DNA of 61,465 nt from Proteiniborus sp. DW1 (GTDB lineage Bacteria; Bacillota; Clostridia; Tissierellales; Proteiniboraceae): positions 1-61,465 of the forward strand of contig NZ_FMDO01000039.1 in the NCBI RefSeq assembly GCF_900095305.1, read 5' to 3'. Below are positions 30,348 through 34,065 of this stretch, piece by piece (position 1 is the stretch's first letter; each line of letters opens with the position of its first letter). The notes under the pieces are model-generated. The model was not told the origin of the DNA, did no database searches, and worked only from the letters and a program-made list of their open reading frames with translations. The translations under genes were made by a program, and so were the position numbers.

Positions 30348-31364
30348 CTATCTCACATTGCTAATTGTCACTGCATGGGCTATTCCTGGAATTGATTCTC
30401 CTTGCTGAATTATGGTTGGAGACAAGAGCGCTCCGGTGGAAACTAGCATTATTCTTTTTAATTTTCCTGCTTTTAATGCCTTATATAAATATCCTGCAAA
30501 GACTACTGCTGAGCAACCACAGCCACTTCCTCCAGCATGAGTATCTTGTCTTTCCGCATCGAATATTTCAATTCCACAATCCATAAAGACTTTTGATACA
30601 TCATACCCTTCCTTAACAATTAGCTCCTCTGCTATCTCCTTTCCTACAGTAGCTAAATCACCAGTAATTATCATATCATAATCTTCAGGCTTAAATCCGG
30701 TATCCTTAAAATGTTGTATTATAGTATCAGCAGCTGCAGGAGCCATAGCTGGTCCCATATTATTAGCATTTGAAATCCCTGGATCTATAATCCTTCCTGT
30801 AGTCAAATGGGTGATATATGGTCCATTTCCATTCGAAGATAATACAGATGCTCCTGCTCCTGTAACTGTCCATTGTGCAGTTGGCGGCCTTTGATTACCG
30901 TGTTCTAAAGGAAACCTAAACTGTCTTTCAGCTGCGCTAAAATGACTAGACGTAACACATACAACCGTATCTGCAAATCCACCATCTATTGCCATAGCTC
31001 CTAAACTTAAGGACTCTGTCTTAGTAGAGCATGCTCCATACAAGCCAAAGAATGGTATCTTAAGTTGTCTTGCAGCATAGGATGATGAAACTATTTGATT
31101 TAGTAAATCGCCTGCAAATAAATAATCCACCTGAGAAGGTACCAGTTTTGCATTTTTTAAAGCTAGATTAACTGCTTCCTGCTGTAACTTTGCTTCTGCT
31201 TTTTCCCAGCTATCCTCTCCCCATAAGTCATCAGCTAAAACTAAATCAAAATAATCTTTTAGAGGACCATCTCCTTCTTTAGGCCCTACTATAGTAGCTG
31301 TAGAAATTATGGAAGGAGGATTTTCTAGAGTTACTGTTTGCTTACCTAATCTTTTTTGTACCAA
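30348..31364 (-). CDS. spoVAD: Stage V sporulation protein AD
   Basis: 338 aa thiolase-like fold. SpoVAD binds dipicolinic acid in Bacillus. Markers are ENPPSIISTATIVGPKEG, LFGACSTK-like YGACSTKTESLSLGAMA and HAGGSGCGCSAVVF. The start is a TTG with the SD GGGAGG 7 bases upstream. It is located in the normal AC-AD-AE order. Confidence 0.96.
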   Translation of the reverse strand: MVQKRLGKQTVTLENPPSIISTATIVGPKEGDGPLKDYFDLVLADDLWGEDSWEKAEAKLQQEAVNLALKNAKLVPSQVDYLFAGDLLNQIVSSSYAARQLKIPFFGLYGACSTKTESLSLGAMAIDGGFADTVVCVTSSHFSAAERQFRFPLEHGNQRPPTAQWTVTGAGASVLSSNGNGPYITHLTTGRIIDPGISNANNMGPAMAPAAADTIIQHFKDTGFKPEDYDMIITGDLATVGKEIAEELIVKEGYDVSKVFMDCGIEIFDAERQDTHAGGSGCGCSAVVFAGYLYKALKAGKLKRIMLVSTGALLSPTIIQQGESIPGIAHAVTISNVR

Positions 31365-31376
31365 ACTATTACCTCC

Positions 31377-31820
31377 CTATTTACTAAGTAGTAAGTAAAT
31401 AATACCAACTAATATTGAGCTCCCATATCCATATACCAATACAGGACCTGCTATAACAAACATTTTAGATGCTACTCCAAGAACAAAACCTTCTCTTTTA
31501 AACTCCATAGCAGGAGAAACTATGGCATTAGCAAAACCTGTAATAGGAACTATAGAGCCTGCCCCTGCTCTTTTTCCTAATCTATCGTATACTCCTAGCC
31601 CAGTCAAAAATGAACCTAAAAAGACTAATGATATAGCTGTTGCAGCAGCTACAGCTTTTTCATCTAAATTTTTTCCTTTAAAGAAGTTTGTGATTATTTG
31701 ACCTATTACACTAATTAATCCTCCAACAATAAATGCCCAAATACAATTTTTAATATAGTTAGGCTTGGGCATTTTTTTCTTCACATATTCGTAATAATCT
31801 TTTTGATTTATATTGTCCAT
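31377..31820 (-). CDS. spoVAC: Stage V sporulation protein AC
   Basis: 147 aa with four membrane helices after a polar N-terminus (NQKDYYEYVKKKMPKPNY). It has FIVGGLISVIGQIITNFF and AGAGSIVPITGFANAIVSPAMEF. In Bacillus SpoVAC behaves as a mechanosensitive channel component for dipicolinic acid. SD GGGAGATG precedes the ATG; it starts 15 bases after the 48-aa small gene. Confidence 0.95.
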   Translation of the reverse strand: MDNINQKDYYEYVKKKMPKPNYIKNCIWAFIVGGLISVIGQIITNFFKGKNLDEKAVAAATAISLVFLGSFLTGLGVYDRLGKRAGAGSIVPITGFANAIVSPAMEFKREGFVLGVASKMFVIAGPVLVYGYGSSILVGIIYLLLSK

Positions 31821-32006: not shown

Positions 32007-32429
32007 TTAATGTTTTCCTATAATACCCCAACTAAAGAAAGAACCTACTACTTTACCTAAAGCAATTGATATAAGTACTGCAAGAATATATTTTTCTATT
32101 TGTACTCTTCTAAATAATACTGGCATGACATTAAGCACCTCTGCTAAGGCTGAAGCTAATAGTCCTACAAATGCACCAAATGTAAATCCCATTAATATTA
32201 GGAATACTTTAGATTTAATTCCTATACTCCATCCAATTAATGTTGATAGTGCAAAATAAGTCGCAGAAAAAGATAAGGTAATTTCATACGTTCCTATTTT
32301 ATCTGAAGTATCTGTAACCTGTGCTAATCTTGGAACAATATCTAAAAGAGCTATAAAAGCTGCAGCTGCAGTTCCAACTAAGGCTCCGCCAGATAGGGCA
32401 AGCACAAAAAGGAATAGTTGCTTTATCAT
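32007..32429 (-). CDS. spoVAB: Stage V sporulation protein AB
   Basis: 140 aa, about four to five helices, with LSGGALVGTAAAAFIALLDIVPRL and GFTFGAFVGLLASALAEVLNVMPV as in SpoVAB. Its exact role in dipicolinic acid movement is not known. SD AAGGTGG precedes the ATG by about 12 bases. It follows spoVAA by 22 bases. Confidence 0.93.
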   Translation of the reverse strand: MIKQLFLFVLALSGGALVGTAAAAFIALLDIVPRLAQVTDTSDKIGTYEITLSFSATYFALSTLIGWSIGIKSKVFLILMGFTFGAFVGLLASALAEVLNVMPVLFRRVQIEKYILAVLISIALGKVVGSFFSWGIIGKH

Positions 32430-32451: not shown

Positions 32452-33063
32452 TTAATTATGCTTAGTTTTGTCTAGTATATAGTCATCAATATTTTTTTGA
32501 TACATAAACATTTCAACTTCAAGTGGACTAGGTTCCTTTTTCCATTTATTTTGGAACATGTGATTAAAAAATACAGTCATGCCAGTGCCTATTCCAACTG
32601 AATAAGGTATTAACAATATTAGAGGCTTACTATTCTCCTCACCCGTAACCATATGATAAATTATCTGTAATGATTGATGCATATTTACATCTGCATGAAA
32701 ATTAACTATAGCTAGACCTGCTCCAAGAAAAAGAATGAAACAAACTAAAACTGTTTTTATTATATTAAATATCTTGCTTTCATTACTATTATTTCCCTGA
32801 ACATCAACCAATATCTCTGCTTCACCCATTACGGTTAATTCTATGTCTTTGTTGAACTCATGTATTACATTGATAATTCTCAAGGCAGGGATTACATCGT
32901 TTATTTTTTTGCCAGATACATCATGGACTTTAAGTTCTAATAGCGAATCTTCCATAGTCTTATCAGTACACAACAATGATGCTACATCCTTAATTCTAAT
33001 TGTCTGCCCTGGTTTTGCAGTAATTTTAGGCTCTATTTGAATATATAGCTTTACATTGTCTAT
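32452..33063 (-). CDS. spoVAA: Stage V sporulation protein AA, apparent AUA start
   Basis: 203 aa with this start, close to the about 206 aa of Bacillus SpoVAA. The N-terminal domain (KLYIQIEPKITAKPGQTIRI) aligns with the start of Bacillus SpoVAA; two helices follow and the conserved PSPLEVEMFMYQ ends the protein. The frame from its upstream stop (33088-33090) to this domain holds no ATG, GTG or TTG. The first such codon is a TTG at 32976, which would remove the conserved N-terminus and has no SD. An AUA at 33063-33061 sits 6 bases behind GGGGGGG; AUU at 33069 is the other option. Confidence 0.85.
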   Translation of the reverse strand: MDNVKLYIQIEPKITAKPGQTIRIKDVASLLCTDKTMEDSLLELKVHDVSGKKINDVIPALRIINVIHEFNKDIELTVMGEAEILVDVQGNNSNESKIFNIIKTVLVCFILFLGAGLAIVNFHADVNMHQSLQIIYHMVTGEENSKPLILLIPYSVGIGTGMTVFFNHMFQNKWKKEPSPLEVEMFMYQKNIDDYILDKTKHN

Positions 33064-33077
33064 AAAAATCCCCCCCT

Positions 33078-33218
33078 TTACTCTAAGTTAATTACTAAAG
33101 TTGCTCGTTTTGGTTCTTCGTTTGCTGAATTATAGTTTTGATAGCAAAAATAACTTGCTATAATTATTGACAGTATTATAAAGCAAAATCCAATTACTTT
33201 TGCTATTTTAATTTTCAT
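33078..33218 (-). CDS. Small membrane peptide gene at the head of the spoVA operon, 46 aa
   Basis: ATG at 33218, stop TAA at 33078-33080. The peptide has a short basic start (MKIKIAKV), one hydrophobic helix (about residues 8-24) and a polar tail (NSANEEPKRATLVINLE), so it should be a single-pass membrane peptide. SD GTGGAG lies 8 bases upstream. Its stop codon runs directly into the SD of spoVAA (TAAAGGGGGGG), so it may couple translation of spoVAA. I recognise no family. Confidence 0.65.
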   Translation of the reverse strand: MKIKIAKVIGFCFIILSIIIASYFCYQNYNSANEEPKRATLVINLE

Positions 33219-33283: not shown

Positions 33284-33307
33284 AAAGGTATGATTTTTCA
33301 TACCTTT
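33284..33307 (-). terminator. Terminator overlapping the sigF stop codon
   Basis: A perfect 10-bp stem AAAGGTATGA/TCATACCTTT with a 4-base loop is followed by ATTTTTTT on the minus strand. It separates the spoIIA-sigF transcript from spoVA. Confidence 0.92.
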
Positions 33308-34065
33308 GTTAACATATCTTTCATGTCATGAAGAACTCTTTTTTCAATTCTAGATACTTGTACCTGTGAAATACCAAGCATGCTTGCTATTTCAGTCTGA
33401 GTTTTATCTTTAAAATACCTCATTATTATGATTTGTCTATCTCTTGGCTTTAATTGACCCAAAATTTGTTTTAAGGTTATCTTATCCAATACTTCAATAT
33501 CTTCATCTTCATTTGTCATGACTTTATCTATTAAATGTATAGGAGAACCGTCATTTTGATGAATCACATCATAGAGATAATCAGGCTGAGCATTGGAGTC
33601 TAATGCCATAACAACTTCTTCCTTATCTACACAAATTTCATCAGCTATTTCTTGAATATTAGGTTCTCTTCCTAAATCTTTTGTTAACTTCTCTTTCGCA
33701 ATATTTGCTTTCATAGCAGTTTGTTTTAAGGATCTACTGACTTTTATTATTCCATCATCCCTTAAAAACCTTTTTATTTCTCCAACAATCATTGGAACAG
33801 CATATGTTGAAAACTTCACATCATAATTTATATCGAATTTTTGAATTGCCTTTAATAATCCAATACAGCCTAATTGATACAAATCTTCGGGCTCATGACC
33901 TCTATTTATGAATCTCCTAAGTACGCTTTTTACAAGACCAAGATTATGGTTTACTAACAAAGTCTGTGCATTTTCATCACCCTGCTGGGCTTTTTTTATC
34001 AAATCCATTGTTTCAGAGTGACTCAACAAGCCATAATTATTTTTTTTAACAGAGCTAGATTCCAT
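33298..34065 (-). CDS. sigF: RNA polymerase sigma-F factor
   Basis: 255 aa forespore sigma factor. Region 2 has DLYQLGCIGLLKAIQKFD and YAVPMIVGEIKRFLRDDG; region 4 ends with SMLGISQVQVSRIEKRVLHDMK. Third gene of spoIIAA-spoIIAB-sigF, with an SD (GAGGAG) at the end of spoIIAB. It is held inactive by SpoIIAB and freed when SpoIIAA is dephosphorylated. Confidence 0.97.
   Translation of the reverse strand: MESSSVKKNNYGLLSHSETMDLIKKAQQGDENAQTLLVNHNLGLVKSVLRRFINRGHEPEDLYQLGCIGLLKAIQKFDINYDVKFSTYAVPMIVGEIKRFLRDDGIIKVSRSLKQTAMKANIAKEKLTKDLGREPNIQEIADEICVDKEEVVMALDSNAQPDYLYDVIHQNDGSPIHLIDKVMTNEDEDIEVLDKITLKQILGQLKPRDRQIIIMRYFKDKTQTEIASMLGISQVQVSRIEKRVLHDMKDMLTKV

Follow-up and report, generated by a model that had tools for sequence, protein, structure and literature searches.

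The spoVAA locus of Proteiniborus sp. DW1

We analysed a 61,465-nucleotide stretch of Proteiniborus sp. DW1 DNA (contig NZ_FMDO01000039.1 of assembly GCF_900095305.1), hereafter called the window, in which all features described here lie on the minus strand. In reading direction, the first is a sporulation sigma factor gene (33298..34065) with Pfam sigma-70 regions, which we take from its context to be sigF. At its end stands an intrinsic-terminator-like hairpin (33284..33307; one found against a mean of 0.3 in shuffles), followed by a T run. Next come a small open reading frame (ORF; 33078..33218) of 46 amino acids with one N-terminal hydrophobic stretch and a C-terminal PKRATLV, and then spoVAA (32452..33063, 203 codons plus stop if read from the AUA codon described below), recognised by its PF12164 domain and a predicted strand. 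Both spoVAB (32007..32429) and spoVAC (31377..31820) were identified with Pfam and start with ATG; the TTG-initiated gene at 30348..31364, presumably spoVAD to judge from its sequence and the gene order, served as a control gene. With sigF, spoVAB and spoVAC as neighbours, spoVAA lies in the context of a spoVA operon. The hairpin after sigF suggests that the small ORF may open a transcription unit of its own together with spoVAA.

Inspection of the spoVAA 5' end revealed an unusual start region. The frame is closed upstream by a stop codon at 33088..33090, from which the minus strand reads TAA CTT AGA GTA AAG GGG GGG ATT TTT ATA. A Shine-Dalgarno (SD) tract, AAAGGGGGGG, occupies 33070..33079, and its run of seven G residues (G7, 33070-33076) is separated by 6 nt from the ATA at 33061..33063 (aligned spacing 8). 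The first-pass annotation of this DNA had listed exactly these codons and proposed that spoVAA starts at this AUA (or at the AUU), and the position of the G7 tract 6 bases ahead of the ATA was confirmed. Between the stop and position 32976 the spoVAA frame contains no ATG, GTG or TTG (collectively NUG); the first one, TTG 32976, lies 29 codons 3' of the ATA and within the Pfam domain. The match to PF12164 (SporV_AA) scored 58.6 bits against a cut-off of 25 and covers residues 4-88 counted from the AUA. In a structure predicted from 15 aligned sequences, a model of fair overall quality (mean pLDDT 77.1, pTM 0.41), the first beta strand would already span residues 4-9 (local pLDDT about 84).

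The main alternative raised earlier was that an ordinary start is concealed by an error at the G7 or T5 tract, introduced during sequencing or assembly. Such tracts are error-prone in principle, and the window comes from a 62-contig assembly. Upstream of the ATA, however, all three frames run into stops (TAA, TAG, TAA) before any NUG, so that a one-base insertion or deletion in G7 or T5 cannot yield an ordinary start. Moreover, an AUH start (AUA, AUC or AUU) recurs in 37 other genomes, as detailed below, many of them without such a homopolymer; they include Clostridiaceae bacterium M8S5 (L064), where it lies on a complete chromosome, and the single-contig genome G002. An error of this kind is therefore practically excluded. 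No sign of control by a local hairpin was seen either, since 193 of 200 shuffled versions of the 120-nt start region folded at least as stably as the region itself (z = +1.62).

Start codons of spoVAA within and beyond the Tissierellales

A recognisable spoVAA gene was present in only 64 of 249 genomes of the order Tissierellales, Proteiniborus sp. DW1 included. When the relatives' spoVAA 5' regions were aligned, the AUA of the window fell in register with the starts of the 63 other genomes. The aligned start codon was ATA in 24, ATC in 10, ATT in 4, ATG in 23, TTG in 2 and GTG in 1, amounting to 38 AUH and 26 NUG starts and no other codon; for G032, G043, G018 and G187, whose alignment offset differed, the start column was placed by eye. 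An earlier set of 60 related genomes had given 34 matches, one of them weak and with internal stops, and most of the 30 loci taken from that set had no ordinary spoVAA start. Codons flanking the start varied, and the start itself was ATH in 38 of 38 AUH loci. Since 38 of the 64 spoVAA-bearing genomes share this anatomy, with at least six changes between AUH and NUG on the tree of neighbouring genes described below, the ATA start of the window is not due to chance.

The trait was distributed by family (given here by code). Every sampled genome carried AUH in f1 (3/3), f8 (4/4), f9 (2/2), f10 (3/3) and f17 (2/2) and in the single-genome families f11, f12 and f16, 17 genomes in total. Mixed families were f13 (AUH in 4/5), f18 (2/4), f7 (14/19) and f5 (1/17); the single genomes of f15 and f19 had ATG and TTG, respectively. 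A set of 75 named loci was also obtained by scanning genome contigs, and their start codons were read by eye. AUH was found in this way, among others, in Sporosalibacterium faouarense, Thermohalobacter berrensis, Anaeromonas frigoriresistens, A. gelatinilytica, Tissierella simiarum, Clostridium sp. Cult1 and Cult2, Schnuerera sp. xch1 and Clostridiaceae bacterium M8S5, as well as in Anaerosalibacter bizertensis, Caloranaerobacter azorensis and [Clostridium] ultunense, which are among the cultured species with this start. NUG starts were read in Tissierella praeacuta, T. creatinophila and T. pigra.

Translation might instead begin at a NUG, either a GTG in or next to the SD or a codon inside the domain such as TTG 32976, which would give a shorter protein. 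An in-frame GTG does lie three codons upstream of the AUH, in or next to the SD, in 16 of the 38 AUH loci, and an annotation program might pick such codons. Thirteen of these 16 GTGs, however, have no SD match at all, and the other three only a weak one. In 14 of the 38 loci there is no NUG whatever from the upstream stop through codon 11 past the AUH; among the remaining 24, many have the GTG just described, and in the others the NUG lies further up- or downstream. A start at 32976 shared by relatives, which would have spoken against the AUA, was not seen, the first downstream in-frame NUG being scattered between 5 and 126 codons into the 38 AUH loci. In the window, a start at TTG 32976 would also cut off the first three strands of the predicted structure. 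We consider a NUG start very improbable.

To compare genes by one rule, we counted as an ordinary start any in-frame NUG between −12 and +10 codons whose SD duplex was at least as strong as −6 kcal/mol, the standard anti-SD being assumed. No such SD-served NUG was present in 35 of 38 AUH loci, compared with 3 of 26 NUG loci of spoVAA; the other three AUH loci do have some NUG with an SD of this strength. The same rule left without an ordinary start none of 61 spoIIAB, 2 of 62 sigF, none of 62 spoVAC and none of 62 spoVAD genes, and 8 of 64 spoVAB genes, six of which form the frameshift-like clade described at the end. Both sigF exceptions and the remaining two of spoVAB have a NUG with a weaker SD. 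Under a cruder rule that ignores the SD, the numbers without an ordinary start were 14/64 for spoVAA, 3/64 for spoVAB and zero for the other four genes.

The AUH codon itself is served by an SD duplex of −9.2 kcal/mol or stronger in all 38 loci. Median duplex energies were −12.4 kcal/mol for AUH starts and −9.3 kcal/mol for NUG starts of spoVAA (rank test p ~2e-8, with kinship ignored), and the spacing was tighter at AUH (33/38 at 8-9, within an aligned range of 6-9). On kinship-independent pairs, about 3.7 of 5 went in the same direction, which is not significant; SD compensation for a weak start, strong as it is in the raw numbers, was therefore not retained. The AUA start proposed for the window is nonetheless strongly supported by the aligned starts of the relatives, the lack of an SD-served NUG and the closed upstream frames, and on these comparative grounds AUH is almost certainly the real start of spoVAA. 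Comparison shows the predicted AUH start to be SD-served and long kept and, to judge from the alignments, it is conserved between species within the order.

Outside the order, only NUG starts were encountered. In a class-wide sample of 391 genomes there were 28 spoVAA matches, 26 of them outside the order, with AUH in 0 of 26; a phylum-wide sample of 398 genomes gave 19 matches, 17 of them new and outside the order, with AUH in 0 of 17. AUH was thus read in 0 of 43 spoVAA genes sampled outside the order, compared with 38 of 64 inside. The Bacillales, Alkaliphilus and Tepidibacter loci of the named set, read by eye, likewise had NUG. The gene of the window resembles the known SpoVAA of the SpoVA channel in its domain (PF12164) and in its operon neighbours sigF, spoVAB and spoVAC, whereas SpoVAA of the sampled Bacillales and other Clostridia differs in starting with AUG, GUG or UUG.

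We examined the history of the trait on a 63-row tree combining SigF and SpoVAC, made by a quick method, with 29 of 60 inner branches starred and the G242 row less than half filled. It required at least six changes between AUH and NUG, and at least nine third-base changes among A, U and C inside the 38 AUH rows. Since changes between AUH and NUG are not much rarer than those within AUH, the trait, as read from this tree, is kept over long stretches and is not locked.

A small ORF that ends at the spoVAA start

The small ORF in front of spoVAA recurs in the spoVAA-bearing genomes of the order. Counterparts of 44-72 amino acids with a PKRAKLV-like motif, ending at the spoVAA start, were found in 63 of the 64 genomes. 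All 63 contain a strongly hydrophobic stretch (best 18-residue mean of at least 2.18), by which the products would be single-transmembrane proteins. Of the 64 retrieved regions, 62 contained sigF; the two exceptions were G242, where the small ORF is present, and G187, where it is absent as well. In the window, the stop of the small ORF lies 14 nt 5' of the AUA; elsewhere, the end of the small ORF overlaps the start of spoVAA by 8 nt in 34 genomes and by 4 nt in 9, and in all 63 it falls at most 38 nt beyond the start and at most 15 nt ahead of it. The order-wide occurrence of the AUH trait and the conserved small ORF ending at the start both go beyond the first-pass annotation.

This arrangement could mean that programmed frameshifting or readthrough joins SpoVAA to the product of the small ORF, so that a start codon is not needed. 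The overlapping or abutting layout in 63 of 64 genomes would fit such a scheme, but the reading-frame offset from the small ORF to spoVAA varies (the three registers occur in 44, 16 and 3 genomes), the window has a stop upstream of the AUA in every frame, and the same layout occurs in genomes with an ATG start. A fusion is thus extremely improbable. Sequencing error, frameshift fusion and an internal NUG start of spoVAA were each rejected after comparison or frame tests.

The small ORF and its overlap accompany AUG starts as well as AUH starts. Coupling of the two ORFs therefore does not explain AUH, and coupling and the AUH start are best regarded as separate features. By eye, related ORFs, with KADLV and YSGAKFV forms of the motif, were seen ahead of spoVAA in many of the other Clostridia inspected; among the 11 Bacillales loci inspected, no motif-bearing small ORF was seen. 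Four representatives compared with Pfam and NCBIfam matched no family over cut-off, and a small ORF ahead of spoVAA was not described in the titles and abstract beginnings of the literature matches listed. The small membrane-protein ORF thus seems to be undescribed, and the analysis exposes it in many Clostridia.

Parallels, possible role and a side case in spoVAB

The infC gene, which encodes initiation factor IF3, is the classic example of a gene with an AUH start, and the first-pass annotation had drawn attention to it. We matched infC in 58 of the 60 relatives and fetched 30 loci (L189-L218), 29 of which were readable. By eye, all 29 start with AUH (23 ATT, 3 ATC and 3 ATA), including the ATT of Proteiniborus sp. 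DW1 itself (L199). The third base partly follows lineage, with ATC in 3/3 of f14 and ATA in 3/4 of f19. Because infC has AUH in 29 of 29 loci, members of the order very probably do initiate at such codons, and the comparison with infC was an apt one. The two genes are alike in that an AUH behind a strong SD has been kept over long evolution, and both have it in the same order. They differ in that spoVAA encodes no initiation factor, which leaves no autoregulatory loop, in that AUH at spoVAA is confined to one order among the genomes sampled, and in that spoVAA adjoins the end of a small ORF. By analogy with other bacteria, control of spoVAA by initiation factors, as raised earlier, is plausible.

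Weak starts are found in other genes as well. The AUU start of Escherichia coli pcnB is said to limit the amount of protein; pcnB shares a weak start with spoVAA and differs in phylum and gene. A study of Staphylococcus aureus mentions IF3 autoregulation at infC, states that conserved AUA, AUU and AUC starts are known in few bacterial genes, and reports that infC, ccpN and cvfC1 start at AUA or AUU with extended SDs (PMC13009471). In that study, reporters of cvfC1, ccpN and citZ reached about 10% of the AUG level in poor medium, that of ccpN up to 30% in rich medium, and the non-canonical start of ccpN is conserved from S. aureus to Bacillus subtilis (PMC13009471). The ccpN (AUA) and cvfC1 (AUU) genes share a conserved non-canonical start and an extended SD with spoVAA; they differ in gene function, and their starts were measured by ribosome profiling and reporters whereas that of spoVAA is deduced by comparison. 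Initiation at an engineered AUU is reported for Clostridium sporogenes and C. butyricum (PMC11040787). AUH starts are thus already known as a kind, and spoVAA adds an unusually widespread case. An AUH start of spoVAA was not described in the titles and abstract beginnings of the literature matches listed.

On the basis of these comparisons, we propose that the strong SD would position the near-cognate AUA (33061-33063) in the P site of the ribosome, to be read there as methionine by initiator tRNA at reduced efficiency, as has precedent in other bacteria. Most SpoVAA synthesis would probably come from ribosomes that, having terminated at the end of the small ORF, re-initiate at the SD/AUH site. 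The likely purpose would be to hold the level of SpoVAA below that of the other SpoVA proteins and to make it sensitive to initiation-factor activity, as with infC. Coupling, tuning and IF3 sensitivity are inferred. The output need not be low, as the strong SDs may raise it again. For the explanation as a whole, in which a weak, SD-driven AUA start is probably coupled to the small ORF and tunes the output of SpoVAA, we estimate a probability of roughly 0.6.

A different reading accepts that AUH is real and sees in it the drift of an AT-rich lineage, in which a weak start is tolerated, perhaps through coupling to the small ORF, and controls nothing. It is consistent with the existence of relatives with AUG, GUG and UUG and at least six changes of the trait, with the small ORF accompanying both start states, and with an SD difference that loses significance on independent pairs. 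Against it, AUH has been kept through whole families with interchange of A, U and C and with strong SDs, and the AUH pattern is absent from four other genes at these loci. Reconstructions in 36 prokaryote groups found a change of AUG to AUU only once in 61,358 ancestral AUG starts (PMC5622118), which also makes drift harder to invoke. We regard drift as possible but doubtful, and lean towards a weak start that is kept for dosage or control rather than merely tolerated.

In B. subtilis, deletion of SpoVAA leads to premature germination according to a review (PMC11841064), and the dose of SpoVAA may therefore be important. A more far-reaching possibility, speculative and on balance unlikely, is that the spoVA leader is a translational control module: the small membrane protein and the AUH start would tie SpoVAA synthesis to termination of the small ORF and to the initiation-factor state of the forespore, metering SpoVAA low or late, and in many Clostridia the small protein might itself belong to the SpoVA machinery or regulate it. 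A weak start kept in a sporulation gene over most spoVAA-bearing genomes of the order offers a natural test of why evolution keeps weak starts. Since the same gene has AUG in close relatives, an experiment in which the starts are swapped is well posed. The N-termini of spoVAA genes are likely to be misannotated.

A separate observation concerns spoVAB. In a clade of six f7 genomes on the tree (locus L157 in G214, L151 in G224, L158 in G223, L160 in G221, L161 in G222 and L162 in G056), the aligned spoVAB start has no in-frame NUG. Nearby in-frame NUGs are a poorly served ATG 7 codons upstream in G221 and TTGs 5 and 7 codons downstream in G214 and G223, respectively. An in-frame GTG is found at the spoVAB start of G212 and G218, two nearby genomes. 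In the clade, an ATG (GTG in G221) stands one register off and is immediately followed by GGA AAG, giving the slippery heptamer G GGA AAG in 6/6. The frame of this NUG ends after 3-5 codons, and the spoVAB frame is open for 137 codons in 6/6. From its sequence, spoVAB of this clade looks like a candidate for −1 ribosomal frameshifting at codons 2-3.
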